This document shows, one piece after another, positions 8,665 through 33,653 of a stretch of 36,972 bases of DNA (the stretch's first letter is position 1; each line of letters starts with the position of its first letter). Location of the stretch: positions 58,050-95,021 of the forward strand of contig NZ_LQYA01000123.1 of the NCBI RefSeq assembly GCF_001531445.1, read 5' to 3'. This stretch comes from Sporosarcina koreensis (GTDB taxonomy: Bacteria; Bacillota; Bacilli; Bacillales_A; Planococcaceae). The position numbers and the translations under genes were made by a program. The notes under the pieces were generated by a model. That model had not been told where the DNA came from. It did no database searches and saw only the letters and a program-made list of their open reading frames with translations.

Positions 8665-8724
8665 TTGAAACAATATGGCTATATCGAAGCCGAACAAGGG
8701 AGAAAAGGGGAATGCAAGAAATGA
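8665..8724 (+). CDS. Possible upstream frame overlapping the phosphotransferase start
   Basis: A frame from TTG 8665 reads MKQYGYIEAEQGRKGECKK and ends in TGA 8722-8724, overlapping ATG 8721 as ATGA. Such an overlap would couple its translation to the phosphotransferase. No ribosome binding site stands at a proper distance from the TTG, so it may instead be the relic of a longer gene start or chance. Confidence 0.25.
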   Translation: MKQYGYIEAEQGRKGECKK

Positions 8725-9737
8725 ACAACCATGATGAAAGGTTTGTAAAGCCCGAAATACTGACGCTTGTTTTGAGTAAAATGCTCGACAATACGATAAT
8801 CCGTGCAAATTATCAACTTAAAGAGTTGCAAGGCGGGACAGTAGGTGTTGTTCGGCTTGTAACAGGCATGGCTGAAACTTCTGATGGTAAACATCTGCCG
8901 TATAAGTTGGTTTGGAAAACACAGAAAAAATTTGAGCGTTATGGTGATCCAGATTCATGGCGTAGAGAATACGACCTCTATTCATCGGATTTTAAAACGG
9001 TTTTCTTCGATTCGTTCCGTTGGCCTGAGTGTTATCACGCTGAAATAAATGGCGATGAAATTCAACTGTGGATGGAATATATTGATGGTGTGTCAGGCGT
9101 ACATTTGACCCCGGAAATGTATGAACGTATAGCTGAGGAATTGGGGCGATTTCAAGGCAAGTTGTACACTGAACGACCAAACTTATTGCAAACCTTGCCC
9201 AATTTAAGCAAGGTTGAGTTTATGAAAAACTACTATCAGCGATATCGGTCATGGGATGTTTTGTATGATTACATTCGCTCCGATGACTGCGAAATTCCGA
9301 AGCACTTGTGTAAAATGCTCATAGACTTAGATAACAATGCGAAAGAAGTATTCAGTCGGATTGAAAAGCTGCTAATAGTGCTTTGCCACAGAGATTTTTG
9401 GGTGGCAAATATATTCTATTCGGACAGTAGAATAGTACTTATCGATTGGGATACCGCCGGATGGGGGTACATGGGAGAGGATATTGCGAGTTTAATAACG
9501 GATGAAGCGGACGTTTGTCATATGGTTGAATACTACCAAAAATGCATTCCGGCGTATTACAGAGGTTTTACGGAATATGCGGATGTGTCCCATATCTCCG
9601 ATCATTGTATGTACGAACTAATCCTTGTCATGTTTGGATACAGGCTTGTGGAGTGGTATAAATTCGCTAGGTCGCCCGAAGATAAAGCAATGCACCTTAA
9701 TACCTTGCAAAAAATCCATGAGATGAGAGATATGTAG
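8721..9737 (+). CDS. APH-family phosphotransferase
   Basis: A 338-residue protein of the aminoglycoside phosphotransferase/choline kinase fold. The catalytic loop CHRDFWVANIF gives D225 and N230, and the metal-binding segment LIDWDTAGWG gives D242. The N-lobe nucleotide-binding part is more diverged (LPYKLVWKTQ). ATG 8721 is favoured because AGGGG (8706-8710) stands about 10 bases upstream; ATG 8712, three residues longer, lies too close to it. The gene sits behind a leader peptide and serial terminators, an arrangement common for inducible resistance genes, and ahead of its own terminator. A role in modifying an antibiotic is inference; the family also contains homoserine, choline and fructosamine kinases. 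I cannot name the substrate. Confidence 0.82.
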   Translation: MNNHDERFVKPEILTLVLSKMLDNTIIRANYQLKELQGGTVGVVRLVTGMAETSDGKHLPYKLVWKTQKKFERYGDPDSWRREYDLYSSDFKTVFFDSFRWPECYHAEINGDEIQLWMEYIDGVSGVHLTPEMYERIAEELGRFQGKLYTERPNLLQTLPNLSKVEFMKNYYQRYRSWDVLYDYIRSDDCEIPKHLCKMLIDLDNNAKEVFSRIEKLLIVLCHRDFWVANIFYSDSRIVLIDWDTAGWGYMGEDIASLITDEADVCHMVEYYQKCIPAYYRGFTEYADVSHISDHCMYELILVMFGYRLVEWYKFARSPEDKAMHLNTLQKIHEMRDM

Positions 9738-27186: not shown

Positions 27187-29421
27187 TTGGCGGGCTTGGA
27201 AAAAATAGGTATGATTGTCACTTCTTCTGTTTTATCCTTCGGTATGTTTTCATCGATTGCCCATGCTTCAACTGCAGAGCATGGACAACCAGAAAAAGTG
27301 CGGATCCAAGTTGCTTCCACTGATACGATCATCTCGAAAGATGAATTGATCAAGAAGTTTAAAAAGATGTTCCCCGATCGGTTTGATTACCTAACGAACA
27401 ATGACTTTCATATGAGCAGTGCGCATATGTATCCTGAGGACGAAACGGTGCGGCATGATCTAAATTTCACCAAAACTGTTAATGGAAAGCGGGTGTATGG
27501 GAGTATTGGTTTTGTCGGGGAGGATCTAGATATAGAATACTTTTCTTATCAGCCTCCTAACGTCAAGGATGCTTTATTCCCTGCAAAAGTATCAAAAGAG
27601 GAAGCAAGAAAAATAGCAGAAGATTTTATGAAAAAATCACTTGGTGGAAAAGACTATCAAGTAGAAACGGATACGTTCAATTATTATCCGCAGCAAATCT
27701 TAACAGAGCCGGTACGCTACTCATTCTCATTTGCACGTACACATAATCAGGTGACCATTGCTGATCAAAGAATGGAAGTATCAGTGTTAGGAAACGGAGA
27801 AGTCGTTAGTTTTCACAAAATGTCTCCACAATCTGCAACTTCTACTTTTTCTGATCCTACACGAATAAAAGATAAAAATGAAATGTTAAAGCAAGTGAAA
27901 GCAAATCTTTCTGTCGACTTGTCTTATCAAGTTAACTATGATTACCAAACGGGAGACCGGAGTGCAGAACTCGTCTATCGACCAACGGCAAAACTGCAAG
28001 GCGTTGAGGCTGCATCAGGAAAATGGATGACGGTAGATGGCTTTGCAACAGATTTTCCATTGAAAACAAAAATTGAAGCGATTTCATCGAAGCCTCTTCC
28101 AGCGAAACAAGACGGGATTACTGTAGAGGACGCAAAGAAGATTGCTGAACAATTTCTTGCCATTGATTCTGAGAAAGTAAAATTGAAAATCGAGTCGATC
28201 CAAGAAATGGAGAACTACAATGGAGTGCCTGTTATATACGTTCAATATATGTATCAACATGCAGGCGGCGGAACAGGATCGAGTTTGGAAATTAATAAAA
28301 ACACGGGTGAAATTGTCAACTTTTATAGTATGAAAGATCATCTGCTAATGGAAATGGGGGAGGAAACAACAAAAAAGGACGCCCTTTCCCAACAGGAAGC
28401 ACTCAATGAAGCAGTGAAGTTTCTAAAAGAATGGGCTCCTTCCAATTTGCATTCGTATGCAATGCCGATAGGAGAACCTTATCGTAATGAAAGAACGGGT
28501 TCTTATTCCTTCACATTCCCCAGGATTATGAATGATATTGTCGTGATGGGAGATCAAATCAGTGTAGAGATAGCGGCTAATGGTTCATTAAACAGCCTAA
28601 ATGTTAATTATCAAGAGATGGAAAATTGGCCATCAAGCGACAATGTCATTTCCGAGAAAGAGGCAAAAAAGGTTTTGGAAGAGGCGCTTACTCTAAAACT
28701 TACGTATATGAAACACGCTAAAAATGAAAAGGAAAATCATTATGATCTCGTGTATGTACCTGTATTCAATGAGGACCCCTATAGTTATGTCAATGCCCAT
28801 ACAGGGGAATGGAATAACTTATATAACGGGAAAGATTCAATTGCCGTAACACATCCTTGGGCGGAAGAAGAACTTAATTATCTTATCAATGCCAACGTGT
28901 TGGATGTAAAAGATGCTACGAGCTTTAACTCTGATGCTGCGATTTCAAAAGGGGAAGCATTGAAAATGCTCATGAATTCACTAACCTATTTCTATCATGG
29001 CAGCTATTACTACGGTCAAGAAAACACGTACCAGACGTTTGAAAATATCGACCCTAAACATCCGTTATATCAGGTGATCGAACGAGCGGTTGAAGCAGGC
29101 ATCATCAAAGCGGATACTAAGAACTTTGATGCCGATGCACCAATTACAAGGGAAGAGCTTTCGGTTTGGATGATCCGCGTCATGGGGCTTGAGAAAGCTG
29201 CAAAAGATAGCAGCATCTTTACGTTAGGCTTTGAAGATGCTGATAAGATAAAAACTGCAAACGTAGGCTACGTAGCGATGGCGAACTCGATGGGCTTAGT
29301 GCAAGCAGAGCAAAACCGGTTCAACCCTGATCGCGAAGTGACGTATGCGGAGTTGGCGGTATCGACGATCCGACTAGCGCATGCAATCGCCGAAAGCGGG
29401 AGAGGTCTACAATATTATTAA
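27187..29421 (+). CDS. Secreted YcdB/YcdC-repeat protein with SLH domains, copy 1
   Basis: A 744-residue surface protein. The signal peptide (about 1-27) ends in SSIAHA. The body contains tandem repeats of the YcdB/YcdC (PepSY-like) type: segments such as VSKEEARKIAEDFMKK, ITVEDAKKIAEQFLAID and ISEKEAKKVLEEALTL each begin a repeat. Three S-layer homology domains (about 550-600, 615-670, 678-740) end the protein and should anchor it to cell-wall secondary polymer. Translation starts at TTG 27187, 5-6 bases after GGAGGG. The next gene is a full-length paralogue with the same architecture and even the same start context. Related Bacillales proteins have no settled function; a protease-inhibitory or propeptide-like role is only suggested by the PepSY resemblance. 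Confidence 0.87.
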   Translation: MAGLEKIGMIVTSSVLSFGMFSSIAHASTAEHGQPEKVRIQVASTDTIISKDELIKKFKKMFPDRFDYLTNNDFHMSSAHMYPEDETVRHDLNFTKTVNGKRVYGSIGFVGEDLDIEYFSYQPPNVKDALFPAKVSKEEARKIAEDFMKKSLGGKDYQVETDTFNYYPQQILTEPVRYSFSFARTHNQVTIADQRMEVSVLGNGEVVSFHKMSPQSATSTFSDPTRIKDKNEMLKQVKANLSVDLSYQVNYDYQTGDRSAELVYRPTAKLQGVEAASGKWMTVDGFATDFPLKTKIEAISSKPLPAKQDGITVEDAKKIAEQFLAIDSEKVKLKIESIQEMENYNGVPVIYVQYMYQHAGGGTGSSLEINKNTGEIVNFYSMKDHLLMEMGEETTKKDALSQQEALNEAVKFLKEWAPSNLHSYAMPIGEPYRNERTGSYSFTFPRIMNDIVVMGDQISVEIAANGSLNSLNVNYQEMENWPSSDNVISEKEAKKVLEEALTLKLTYMKHAKNEKENHYDLVYVPVFNEDPYSYVNAHTGEWNNLYNGKDSIAVTHPWAEEELNYLINANVLDVKDATSFNSDAAISKGEALKMLMNSLTYFYHGSYYYGQENTYQTFENIDPKHPLYQVIERAVEAGIIKADTKNFDADAPITREELSVWMIRVMGLEKAAKDSSIFTLGFEDADKIKTANVGYVAMANSMGLVQAEQNRFNPDREVTYAELAVSTIRLAHAIAESGRGLQYY

Positions 29422-29647: not shown

Positions 29648-31879
29648 TTGGCAAAGTTAAAAAAAGTAGGTATGATTTTATCTTCATCTGTTTTGTCTTT
29701 CGGCATGTTTTCTTCGGTTGCAAATGCTTCAACTACAGAAATTGGACAACCAGAAAAAGTACGGATTCAAGTCGCTTCCACAGATGTTGAAATCTCGAAA
29801 GATGAGCTGATCAAAAAGTTTAGGGAAATATTCCCTCACCAATTTGACTTTTTGACGAATAATGATTTTCATGTGAGCAGTGGACATATGTTCCCGGAAG
29901 ATGAAACAGTCCGGCATGATCTAGTTTTTACAAAGACCATTAATGGAAAGCAGATTTACGGCAATATAGGATTTGTTGGAGAAGAACTGGATATCGAGAA
30001 TTTTTCCTATCAACCGCCTAATGTGACAGATGCTTTGTTCCCTCCTAAAGTTTCAAAAGAAGAAGCAAAGAAAATAGCGGGAAATTTTATGAAGGAATTT
30101 CTAGATGGAAAAGACTATCAACTAGAAACGAACACGTTCAACTATTATCCTCAACAGATTTTAACTGAGCCGATTCGTTACTCATTTACTTTTGCGCGTA
30201 CAGAAAACCAAGTCTCCATTGCGGATCAAATAATGCAAGTATCTGTTTTGGGGAATGGTGAAATCGTTAGTTTTTACAAGATGTCCCCACAATCTACAAA
30301 ATCCACTTATGAGGACGTCACACAAATCAAAGATAAGTATGAAATGGTAAAGAAAGTGAAAGAAAATCTATCTGTTGAATTAAATTATCAAGTTAACTAT
30401 GATTACCAAACGGGCGATCGCAGTGTAGAGCTCGTCTACCGGCCAACGGCAAAATTTCACGGCATTGAAGCGTCTACAGGGAAGTGGTTGACTGCAAATG
30501 GTTTTACATCGGACATTCCAGGTGAAACAAAAATTGAAAAGGTTACAGTAAATCCACTTCCAGCAAAACAGGATGGGATTACTGTAGAAGAAGCGAAAAA
30601 GATTGCCGAACAATTTCTAGCGATTGATTCTGATAAAATAAAATTAAATATCGAGTCAATTCAGGAAATAGAAAACTATAATGGAATGCCCGTTATTTCT
30701 GTCCAATATATGTATCGGTATAGAACTGGCGGAAGTGGTTCAAGTTTAGAAATTAATAAAAGTACAGGCGAAATTATCAACTATCACAATATGAAGGATC
30801 ACTTGCTGATGAAGTATGGAGAGGATTCTAAAAAAGAAAATAGCCTTTCTCAACAGGAAGCACTCAGCCAAGCTGTGAAATTGCTAAAGGAATGGGTCCC
30901 TTCCTATTTGCATAACTATGCAATGCCAGTAGGAGAACCTTATGTTGACGAACGAGTAGGTTCGTATCAGTTCTCATTCCCAAGAGTCGTAAATGGAATT
31001 ATCGTCAATGGCGATCAGATCAGTATAGGAATAGCGTCTGACGGTTCTTTAAATAGCTTAAATGTCGATTACCAAGAGATGGAAAATTGGCCACCAAGCG
31101 ATGACGTGATTTCCACGGAAGAGGTTAAGGCGATTTTTGAAGAAGCACTTGACCTTAATCTTACGTATATGAAGCATTCTAAAAATGAAAAGGAAAATCA
31201 TTATGATCTCGTTTATGTACCTGTTTTTAACGAGGAACCACATGGGTATGTGAATGCGCATACAGGGGAATGGAATAACCTCTTTAACGGCAAAGATTCA
31301 ATTACCATTTCACATCCTTGGGCAGAAGAGGAGCTCAATTATCTTATTAACGCCAGAGTATTAGATATAAAAGAAGGTAAAAGCTTTAATCCTGATGCTG
31401 CTATTTCAAAAGGGGAAGCATTGAAAGTCATTATGAGCTCACTCACCTATTTCTATCGTGGCGGTTATTACCCGGGACAGCCAAACATGAACCAGACGTT
31501 TGATAATATAGATACTAAACATACACTATATCAGGAAATTGAACGTGCGGTTGAATTGGGTATTCTAAAAGCGGATAGTCAGAACTTTGATGTCGATGAA
31601 CCGGTGACAAGAGAAGAACTTTCGGTATGGATGATCCGCGTATTAGGTTTAGAGCAGGCAGCAAAGGATAGCAGTATCTATAAGGCTGATTTTGAAGATG
31701 CCGATAAGATCCAATCTCCGAATATTGGTTATGTAGCAATGGCAAACTCGATTGGCTTAGTAAAAGCGGAGCAAAACCGGTTTAATCCTGATCGCGAAGT
31801 GACTTACGCGGAATTGGCGGTGTCAACGATCCGACTAGCGCATGCAATCGCTGAAAGCGGGAGAGGTCTAAGATATTAG
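29648..31879 (+). CDS. Secreted YcdB/YcdC-repeat protein with SLH domains, copy 2
   Basis: A 743-residue paralogue of the preceding protein, collinear along its whole length. The signal peptide ends in SSVANA; the YcdB/YcdC-type repeats and three SLH domains are in the same positions. The start is again TTG, with GGAGGGGTATTTTGGC in front almost as in copy 1. The last stretch of coding sequence, from about 31827, is nearly identical in DNA to copy 1, so a recent duplication or gene conversion is likely. The central parts differ more (for example the HHAGGG-like loop of copy 1 versus YRTGGS here). The region upstream (29502-29640) is very AT-rich and probably holds its promoter. It could be a stage- or condition-specific surface variant. 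Confidence 0.87.
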   Translation: MAKLKKVGMILSSSVLSFGMFSSVANASTTEIGQPEKVRIQVASTDVEISKDELIKKFREIFPHQFDFLTNNDFHVSSGHMFPEDETVRHDLVFTKTINGKQIYGNIGFVGEELDIENFSYQPPNVTDALFPPKVSKEEAKKIAGNFMKEFLDGKDYQLETNTFNYYPQQILTEPIRYSFTFARTENQVSIADQIMQVSVLGNGEIVSFYKMSPQSTKSTYEDVTQIKDKYEMVKKVKENLSVELNYQVNYDYQTGDRSVELVYRPTAKFHGIEASTGKWLTANGFTSDIPGETKIEKVTVNPLPAKQDGITVEEAKKIAEQFLAIDSDKIKLNIESIQEIENYNGMPVISVQYMYRYRTGGSGSSLEINKSTGEIINYHNMKDHLLMKYGEDSKKENSLSQQEALSQAVKLLKEWVPSYLHNYAMPVGEPYVDERVGSYQFSFPRVVNGIIVNGDQISIGIASDGSLNSLNVDYQEMENWPPSDDVISTEEVKAIFEEALDLNLTYMKHSKNEKENHYDLVYVPVFNEEPHGYVNAHTGEWNNLFNGKDSITISHPWAEEELNYLINARVLDIKEGKSFNPDAAISKGEALKVIMSSLTYFYRGGYYPGQPNMNQTFDNIDTKHTLYQEIERAVELGILKADSQNFDVDEPVTREELSVWMIRVLGLEQAAKDSSIYKADFEDADKIQSPNIGYVAMANSIGLVKAEQNRFNPDREVTYAELAVSTIRLAHAIAESGRGLRY

Positions 31880-31889
31880 TCATTTTCTA

Positions 31890-31918
31890 TTGACATAGCA
31901 AAAGCTGTCACATATAAT
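31890..31918 (+). promoter_or_regulatory. Consensus sigma-A promoter of the T-box/thrS unit
   Basis: TTGACA (31890-31895), exactly 17 bp, and TATAAT (31913-31918) make a perfect consensus promoter. It lies just before the first T-box, so strong constitutive initiation with control at the leader is predicted. Confidence 0.92.
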
Positions 31919-31942
31919 ACAATACAATTAATTATCTATAAA

Positions 31943-32184
31943 CAAGCGTTGAGAAGGACATGAATCATTTTGAAAGCTTTGCCAGAGAACAGGACCATGG
32001 CTGGAAGTCCTGTAGCGGAAAAGATGTTTTACCACCTTTGAGCATTGTAGAGGACTGCGCCAAGCAGGAAACTATGATCGGGAGACCGTTATCGATTGAG
32101 CGCCGTGTTTTTACGTATGGCGAAATCAGGGTGGTACCACGACCGCATTCGTCCCTTTATTGGGGAAGAATGCGGTCTTTTTTA
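31943..32184 (+). ncRNA. T-box leader 1, threonine specifier
   Basis: A tRNA-sensing leader. Stem I begins near GCGTTGAGAAGGACATGAA. The specifier codon is ACC (threonine) at 32031-32033, directly before the CCTTTGAG strand that pairs with GAGAAGG. The T-box sequence AGGGTGGTACCACG lies at 32128-32141. The terminator GACCGCATTC (32141-32150)/GAATGCGGTC (32168-32177) plus T7 follows. Uncharged tRNA-Thr should favour the antiterminator and readthrough. Confidence 0.95.
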
Positions 32185-32193
32185 ATTTTATAC

Positions 32194-32433
32194 GAAGCGT
32201 TGAGAAGGACATGAATCATTTCGGAAGCTTTACCAGAGAACAGGACCATGGCTGGAAGTTCTGTAGCGGAAAATTGATTTACCACCTTTAAGCTATCATA
32301 GGGGACTGCACTTTGCAGGAAACTATGATCGGGAGACCGTTATCAATTGAGCGCCACGTTTTTTACACATGGCGGAATCAGGGTGGTACCACGACCGCAT
32401 TCGTCCCTTTACTAGGGAGGAATGCGGTTTTTT
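32194..32433 (+). ncRNA. T-box leader 2, threonine specifier
   Basis: A second complete T-box, highly similar to the first, begins 10 bases after the first terminator. It has a GCGTTGAGAAGGACATGAA start, specifier ACC (32281-32283), T-box AGGGTGGTACCACG (32380-32393), and terminator GACCGCATTC (32393-32402)/GAATGCGGT (32420-32428) plus T-run. Its position in series with leader 1 means both must read through before the ThrRS gene is expressed. Confidence 0.95.
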
Positions 32434-32462
32434 ATTTTATATACAACATAGGAGGAATTACA

Positions 32463-33653
32463 ATGTCAGTACAACTGGATATCGAAAAAAGGAATCATCG
32501 TAAATTGGGTCAGGAGCTTGAATTGTTCATGTCGTCAGAGGAAGCGCCAGGCATGCCGTTTTATTTGCCGAAAGGGATGATTGTCAGGAACGAGTTGGAG
32601 CAGTTTTGGAAACGGAAGCATCAGGAAGCGGGCTATGATGAGATTAAGACGCCGATTATGATGAAGCAGGAGCTATGGGAGCAATCTGGACATTGGGATC
32701 ACTATCATGAAAATATGTACTTTTCCGATGTGGATGAACAGCAATATGCATTGAAACCGATGAATTGTCCGGGGGCGATGCTGATCTTTAATCATAAACG
32801 GAGAAGTTACCGGGAGTTGCCGATCCGTTATGCGGAATTAGGTTTAGTGCATCGTCATGAATTATCCGGCTCATTGAATGGACTATTGCGTGTTCGTGCA
32901 TTTACACAAGATGATGCGCATCTATTCGTTCGGAAAGATCAAATTAAGCGGGAAGTCGATCATGTATTGGATTTGATTGACGATATTTATTCGGAATTCG
33001 GTTTCAGCTATGAAGTCGAATTATCGACAAGGCCCGAAAATTATATGGGGTCCGTCGATTTATGGAATGAAGCGGAGCAATCATTGGAAGAAGTGTTGAA
33101 ACAAAGAGGAATGGCCTATCGCATTAACGAAGGGGACGGCGCGTTTTATGGCCCGAAAATTGATTTTCACATTTTGGATTCGTTAGGGCGGAGCTGGCAA
33201 TGCGGCACAGTTCAATTGGACTTCCAAATGCCCGAGAAATTCAATTGCCGGTACATTAATGAAGAGAATGAGCTTAAATTTCCAATCATTATCCATCGAG
33301 CGATTTTCGGTTCAGTCGAGAGATTCCTTGCCATTCTCGTTGAGCATTATGCGGGAGAATTTCCGTTGTGGCTCGCACCGGAACAAGTAAGAATCATACC
33401 GATTGCCGATAAGCATATATCTTACGCTGAAGAAGTGGGGAAAGAGCTTGTTGCAAAAGGATATCGTGTGAAAGTGGATGATCGAGCTGAAAAAATGGGG
33501 TTGAAAATTAGGGAGTCGGAAAAGCAGAAAGTCCCTTATATGATGATTGTTGGCGATCAGGAAGTTGAAAAGCAATTGGTTTCTGTCCGAAAGCGGAAAG
33601 AAGGGGACATCGGACAATTGAAGATGGAGGAAATGTTCGATGTGCTGAACTGA
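32463..33653 (+). CDS. thrS: Threonyl-tRNA synthetase-like protein without editing domain
   Basis: A 396-residue class II synthetase. It starts exactly at the linker that follows the editing domain in full ThrRS (IEKRNHRKLGQELELF) and contains the catalytic core and anticodon-binding domain only. The TGS and editing (N1/N2) domains, about 240 residues, are absent. The zinc ligands are C102 (MNCPG), H153 (DDAHLF; the spacing of 51 equals E. coli C334/H385) and H278 (IIIHRAIFGS). Motif 2 HRHELSGSLNGLLRVRAFTQDDAH and motif 3 SVERFLAILVEHYAGEFPLWLAP are intact. AGGAGGAATTACA precedes ATG 32463, and two tandem threonine T-boxes control it. It is probably a starvation-induced accessory ThrRS, with the housekeeping copy elsewhere (inference). 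Confidence 0.93.
   Translation: MSVQLDIEKRNHRKLGQELELFMSSEEAPGMPFYLPKGMIVRNELEQFWKRKHQEAGYDEIKTPIMMKQELWEQSGHWDHYHENMYFSDVDEQQYALKPMNCPGAMLIFNHKRRSYRELPIRYAELGLVHRHELSGSLNGLLRVRAFTQDDAHLFVRKDQIKREVDHVLDLIDDIYSEFGFSYEVELSTRPENYMGSVDLWNEAEQSLEEVLKQRGMAYRINEGDGAFYGPKIDFHILDSLGRSWQCGTVQLDFQMPEKFNCRYINEENELKFPIIIHRAIFGSVERFLAILVEHYAGEFPLWLAPEQVRIIPIADKHISYAEEVGKELVAKGYRVKVDDRAEKMGLKIRESEKQKVPYMMIVGDQEVEKQLVSVRKRKEGDIGQLKMEEMFDVLN

Follow-up and report, generated by a model that had tools for sequence, protein, structure and literature searches.

The window analysed here is a stretch of 36,972 nucleotides (C89:58050-95021) from a draft assembly of 4.34 Mb in 425 contigs with a completeness of 99.4%. 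It carries a gene for a short threonyl-tRNA synthetase (ThrRS), preceded by a promoter and two T-box leaders in tandem (Table 1); its closest named relatives, at 85–93% identity, belong to Sporosarcina, which is therefore very probably the host genus. The promoter, described in the first-pass annotation as a perfect consensus, is the single exact match to TTGACA-N17-TATAAT in the whole window, where shuffled sequences predict 0.03. The near-duplication of the T-boxes, each with an ACC specifier and a terminator of its own, was also borne out. The two leaders align with 222 identical positions, 22 mismatches and 8 gaps (88% alike), and both cover positions 1–219 of the 219 in the RF00230 model, with scores of 77.4 bits (E = 6.4e-17) for leader 1 and 76.1 bits (E = 1.3e-16) for leader 2. 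The specifier lies within UUUACCA in both, as it does in the thrS leader of the same genome, and the terminator-bearing stretches have folding energies of about -28.5 and -29 kcal/mol, equalled by none of 200 shuffles. Both leaders score below the Rfam curated cut-off of 93 bits, and a default Rfam scan therefore does not list them; the thrS T-box of the same genome is also below this value (91.0 bits).

Table 1. Features of the short ThrRS locus, in coordinates of the window.
Feature	Position	Strand	Details
Sigma-A-type promoter TTGACA-N17-TATAAT	31890..31918	+	Exact consensus match
T-box leader 1 (RF00230)	31940..32159	+	Specifier ACC 32031-32033; antiterminator bulge UGGU, variable base 32135
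Terminator hairpin 1, then U run	32141..32177	+	
T-box leader 2 (RF00230)	32191..32411	+	Specifier ACC 32281-32283; antiterminator bulge UGGU, variable base 32387
Terminator hairpin 2, then U run	32394..32428	+	
Shine-Dalgarno AGGAGG	32450..32455	+	Precedes the ATG of the short ThrRS
Short ThrRS, 396 aa	32463..33653	+	Class II core 89-296, anticodon-binding domain 308-395; without TGS and SAD

The encoded protein scores 575.8 bits against the thrS equivalog TIGR00418, above the cut-off of 383.65, and Pfam finds in it only the tRNA-synt_2b (PF00587) and HGTP_anticodon (PF03129) domains; the TGS and SAD domains of the usual bacterial ThrRS are absent. Residues 7–394 align with residues 239–627 of E. 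coli ThrRS, and the short protein therefore starts just past the TGS and editing domains, as had been proposed from its sequence at the outset. The domain loss was established from Pfam and from sequence alignment to solved structures; a structure model of the protein, with 16 close sequences, was of poor quality (mean pLDDT 65.8). The zinc ligands C334, H385 and H511 (E. coli numbering) are kept in all 98 distinct short cores, as are the catalytic sites H309, R363, R375, Q381, D383, K465 and R520. The obafluorin study measured the enzyme activity of an E. coli ThrRS fragment spanning residues 242–642 (PMC11252418), which makes catalysis without the N-terminal domains plausible for the short ThrRS by analogy.

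One position close to the zinc site differs between the two forms. The residue three after C334 (position 337) is alanine in 96 of the 98 short cores, with one serine and one threonine, and histidine in all 75 full-length proteins of our Bacilli set. We considered this substitution as a compensation for the loss of editing and discarded the idea, as A, G, S or C fills this position in 27 of the 29 full-length frames of a phylum-wide sample. As a separate observation, histidine three residues after the first zinc ligand is found in E. coli and in the Bacilli examined, and the alternative residues in these full-length phylum proteins (L307-L336).

The short gene is an extra copy, since the same genome encodes a full-length ThrS of 645 residues on contig C172, with TGS, SAD, core and anticodon domains and a T-box of its own; a second, full-length thrS, which the first-pass annotation had suggested looking for, is thus present. 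By eye, both motifs of what we take to be the editing site (HSTAH and CRGIH) are intact in this protein. With a loose pattern both were found in 75 of 80 full-length ThrRS frames and in none of 121 short rows, redundant rows included. The editing domain PF07973 has three matches in the host genome, in ThrS, in a frame of 881 aa (AlaRS by its length) and in a frame of 379 aa (AlaX-like by eye); none of them is on the contig of the window, and the trans-editing protein that might have been encoded nearby was not found there.

This arrangement bears on the suggestion, made in the first-pass annotation, of a deliberate stress device, in which an editing-free ThrRS made during starvation would purposely place serine at threonine codons. 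The editing domain is gone across the whole clade of short enzymes, and expression would be tied to low charging, when the ratio of threonine to serine would be lowest. However, a full ThrS is present in every genome checked, so that editing in trans is to be expected, and we found no positive evidence for deliberate mistranslation, a reading that we consider very improbable. A broader form of it, a regulated and heritable phase of Ser-for-Thr mistranslation throughout the clade, with fidelity depending on how much short enzyme there is relative to ThrS, seems to us quite improbable.

Consideration of the distribution of the short form gives insight into its relationship to other second copies. 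Within the host genus full thrS is present in 61 of 61 genomes, the short ThrRS in 19, and a second full-length ThrRS (60–62% identity) in 7; 35 genomes carry neither second form, and a second ThrRS is therefore dispensable. No genome of the genus has both, where 2.2 would be expected (P of none 0.06), although this is a weak test that ignores ancestry. In a family sample of 200 genomes (E <= 1e-135) the short form was found in 28 and full-length type-B ThrRS in 45, and the two were found together in none, against 6.3 expected by a calculation that ignores shared ancestry. As the two are never together in these samples, they look interchangeable. Among the 45 are matches in two genomes of genus g13 (G154 and G090) with frames of just 440 and 353 aa; these may represent further truncation, a frameshift or decay.

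The short form accompanies a full thrS in each of the 18 genomes examined in genus g4. Named genomes were scanned specifically for the short form, and the best 80 of 107 relatives were retained; 48 of 50 genomes chosen from these were searched in full, and each of the 48 has exactly two ThrRS matches (E <= 1e-60), one full and one short. These best 80 relatives all have open frames of 400–475 aa, and come from Bacillaceae (65), Caryophanaceae (11), Sporolactobacillaceae (2), Anoxybacillaceae (1) and Paenibacillaceae (1). In a sample of 149 genomes from the phylum, 8 of which have no match above the cut-off, the window's own gene is the sole short frame above it, besides one frame truncated by a contig end. 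In both genomes of Peribacillus deserti (G545 and G558; loci L195 and L226) the short gene comes immediately after full thrS, in the same orientation. An origin from a mobile element was rejected; the best plasmid match is at 69.9%, the other 14 listed of 731 plasmid records reach 62% at most, and all 43 phage records are under 60%. The plasmid match itself is to a 690-kb replicon of Cytobacillus spongiae (PLSDB NZ_CP089998.1) and extends across the whole query. The short ThrRS is an old, conserved family centred on the Bacillaceae and carried by many Bacillaceae and their relatives.

The phylogeny of the short form agrees in two trees. All 71 short rows form one clade in a quick tree of 111 rows (SH-aLRT 100), as do all 21 in a more careful tree of 78 rows (support 100/100). 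In both, the sister group is the full-length type-B ThrRS of Bacilli, which includes the ThrZ-like genes of the host genus, and the short clade is far from the housekeeping thrS type; the sister relation has a support of 95/79 in the careful tree. E. coli forms a very long branch, and its placement is unsure. Both trees reject an origin of the short form within the ThrZ of its own genus and place it as a sister lineage instead. The simplest account of the trees would be that the N-terminal half was lost once and that the short form then spread over a long time by vertical, and perhaps also lateral, inheritance.

At 96 non-redundant short loci we counted two T-box motifs in 72, three in 21 and one in 3, so that 93 have at least two; of the 204 specifiers that could be read in the 210 T-box motifs of these genes, 199 are ACC. 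Upstream of the first T-box, a strict TTGACA-N16-18-TATAAT promoter is present at 28 of 93 loci, a much looser pattern at 61 and neither at 4. In a tree of 57 T-boxes from 25 chosen loci, outside the host genus the boxes of one genome tend to group with each other, which implies several rounds of renewed duplication or homogenisation; on this tree, selection maintains the number of T-boxes rather than the individual copies. Tandem T-boxes also occur upstream of full-length relatives, with two threonine T-boxes, identified by eye, before the one leader read among the seven full ThrZ-like genes of the host genus (in genome G006), and three T-box motifs before the type-B gene of genome G064. In the sections available to us of one survey, tandem T-boxes among synthetase genes are reported for thrS only, with pairs making up 87% and triples 13% of the tandem cases in Bacillota (PMC12452182), and those of thrZ had been noted earlier (PMC2494555). 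The initial reading of this locus as an odd single gene with a special arrangement was thus too narrow: the gene is real and its description stands, but it belongs to a conserved family, and tandem T-boxes are known for ThrRS genes.

A decaying or useless duplicate might be suspected from the patchy presence of the short form in the host genus (19 of 61 genomes) and from a gene split into two frames at locus L051 of one low-quality genome (G023; 83% completeness, 9% contamination), where the split may be an assembly error. The median dN/dS is 0.030 for ten short genes of the host genus (30 of 45 pairs unsaturated) and, for comparison, 0.023 for nine thrS cores (20 of 36 pairs unsaturated); on these values the short ThrRS is under strong purifying selection. 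This selection, the active-site residues kept in 98 of 98 cores and the two or three T-box motifs at 93 of 96 loci speak against decay; the selection data come near to refuting it, and we find it scarcely credible.

The pairing of the leaders with tRNA is less regular. The tRNA-Thr(GGU) has U73 in the host genome and in all 20 named genomes, of 30 queried, in which this tRNA was located, which calls for UGGA in the antiterminator. In the 210 T-boxes of short genes the variable base is A in 113, C in 52, U in 44 and G in 1, and as 97 of them lack A, the strength of their response to the tRNA is uncertain. By comparison, 45 boxes could be read in thrS leaders from 47 loci, and 44 of these have A; the exception, with U, is locus L274 of genome G548, where tRNA-Thr(GGU) was not found. 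In the window both leaders are UGGU, in which the variable base does not pair with U73 of tRNA-Thr(GGU). A73 is present on the tRNA-Thr(UGU) of the host genome, and UGGU could pair with it, at the cost of a mismatch at the third specifier position; UGGC pairs with the discriminator of neither tRNA-Thr. An alaS T-box tolerates a third-position mismatch in its specifier (PMC4695836).

The simplest reading of the variable-base mismatch would be a weaker switch with a higher threshold. We place little weight on this, because leuS and trpS of the host genome seem to be off the rule too, which weakens the view of the mismatch as unique to the short gene. The T-box of leuS (L014; gene named by eye) has UGGC, which is non-canonical against A73 of tRNA-Leu(GAG), and that of trpS (L013; gene named by eye) has UGGU, which is non-canonical against the expected discriminator of tRNA-Trp. 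The latter is presumably G73; tRNA-Trp is not among the tRNAs found in this genome.

We propose that the short enzyme is a reserve ThrRS, made when the charging of tRNA-Thr collapses, and that ThrS probably edits its products in trans; we hold this reading, which draws on comparison of sequences, to be the probable one. RNA polymerase would initiate often from the strong promoter, and transcription would halt at terminator 1 or terminator 2 unless uncharged tRNA-Thr(GGU) occupied both leaders; with a stop at either terminator unless both are bound, output would climb steeply as charging fails. It is reasonable to infer, as in the first-pass annotation, that expression is restricted to strong threonine-tRNA starvation. 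Once both switches opened, a ThrRS without proofreading would be synthesised. Such an enzyme would be of most use if the housekeeping ThrS were blocked by an inhibitor, damaged or in short supply; it would be of less use in a simple lack of threonine, because a second synthetase cannot make threonine. Ser-tRNA-Thr would be expected among its products and would be hydrolysed in trans by ThrS, either as the free enzyme or in a mixed dimer. In Anabaena, T1 subunits edit the Ser-tRNA-Thr produced by T2 (PMC4787780). By this analogy ThrS probably edits in trans for the short enzyme also, although T2 is about full size and editing-impaired rather than domain-less. No sampled genome combines the short form with a full type-B gene, and this distribution suggests that they fill one shared role, reserve charging, in which the editing domain is dispensable.

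The same switch would also suit an inducible resistance copy, the second possibility raised in the first-pass annotation: natural inhibitors of ThrRS would raise uncharged tRNA-Thr and so switch on an unaffected ThrRS, and the logic of the T-box fits any inhibitor of ThrS. The 98 short cores differ from 46 thrS-type cores in all rows at positions 381 (Q against L), 479 (Q against T), 480 (C against L) and 489 (M against L or Q), and the idea has a precedent in ObaO, a second ThrRS that serves Pseudomonas fluorescens as an immunity enzyme (PMC11252418). However, the change of E. coli G463 to serine or alanine that gives resistance to obafluorin and borrelidin (PMC11252418) is absent, with glycine in 98 of 98 short cores, and the short-form residues at 381, 479 and 480 are the same as those of E. 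coli, a sensitive enzyme. L489M conferred no obafluorin resistance (PMC11252418), which rules it out as a resistance mark, and M489 is also found in 24 of 29 full type-B ThrRS. Nor does the locus have widely conserved neighbours: at 80 loci each neighbour family occurs at no more than 12, and each of the 12 commonest spans at most four genera, so that the short ThrRS gene is a stand-alone gene. The resistance reading is therefore not supported by our data, and we regard it as unlikely.

A stand-in for low zinc or for a damaged ThrS, comparable to T2 of Anabaena, would likewise be a second ThrRS with poor editing that is produced when the first one fails (PMC4787780). The zinc ligands are retained throughout the short cores, which speaks against this, although T2 keeps them as well, and control is by T-box. 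A Zur-box pattern allowing up to three mismatches found nothing in the 5 kb on either side of the promoter; the rest of the window has 4 weak matches against 2.5 expected. We rejected zinc control of the short gene as there is no Zur-like site near it, and we consider the stand-in very unlikely. The reserve role set out above is the reading we retain.

Several known ThrRS enzymes resemble the short form in part. MST1 of yeast mitochondria has a layout in which the N-terminal editing domain is lacking or damaged, ThrRS-1 of some archaea, Aeropyrum among them, is editing-less, and the PDB matches of the short ThrRS include a mitochondrial ThrRS and ThrRS 1. The mycoplasma, MST1 and ThrRS-1 enzymes either act as the principal ThrRS in the cell or organelle concerned or are paired with a separate editing protein; the Bacillaceae short form differs from these enzymes in being an extra, regulated copy. 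The mycoplasma ThrRS is similar in that its N-terminal editing domain is lacking or damaged (PMC4014445). ObaO is also a second copy and shares the methionine that replaces E. coli L489, but it has serine at the G463 position and a known drug role, whereas the short form has glycine there (PMC11252418). Anabaena T2 is alike in being a second ThrRS that is made conditionally, edits poorly and coexists with an accurate enzyme; it is a protein of about 75 kDa under Zur and zinc control, while the short form is domain-less and under T-box control (PMC4787780).

For the bacillar thrZ we take B. subtilis thrZ as the type case. In bacilli thrZ encodes a second ThrRS with two to three T-boxes upstream (PMC2494555), and the short gene is alike in being a second ThrRS gene with tandem threonine T-boxes. 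The ThrZ-like genes of the host genus, in contrast, are full length (frames of 639–693 aa), with editing motifs seen by eye in the two that were translated, and the short form falls outside their clade in its own clade with 100/100 support. The tandem-T-box thrS genes of Bacillota have the same arrangement, and the sections of the survey available to us make no mention of a half-length product (PMC12452182). In the accessible part of a 2022 review of duplicated synthetases, the ThrRS cases are Anabaena T2 and the eukaryotic ThrRS-L (PMC9437257). Tandem T-boxes on thrS and thrZ and an editing-defective second ThrRS in Anabaena are thus already published (PMC12452182, PMC2494555, PMC4787780); our search, confined for the most part to open-access literature, turned up no account of the short ThrRS clade of Bacillaceae.

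These genomes hold a natural and widespread pair of full and editing-free ThrRS, close to laboratory models and under an easily read switch. With this pair it can be tested whether cells put up with lower fidelity so that translation continues during a failure of charging, and whether trans-editing by the other paralogue is a solution of general use. The plain annotation threonine--tRNA ligase may thus hide an auxiliary enzyme of half the usual length, a point of importance for genome annotation and for ThrRS as a drug target.

Elsewhere in the window, two adjacent frames at 27187-29421 and 29648-31879 encode similar proteins (744 and 743 aa) that carry YcdB/YcdC (DUF4901), PepSY and S-layer homology domains, and the frame at 8712-9737 encodes an APH/choline-kinase-like phosphotransferase of 341 aa.
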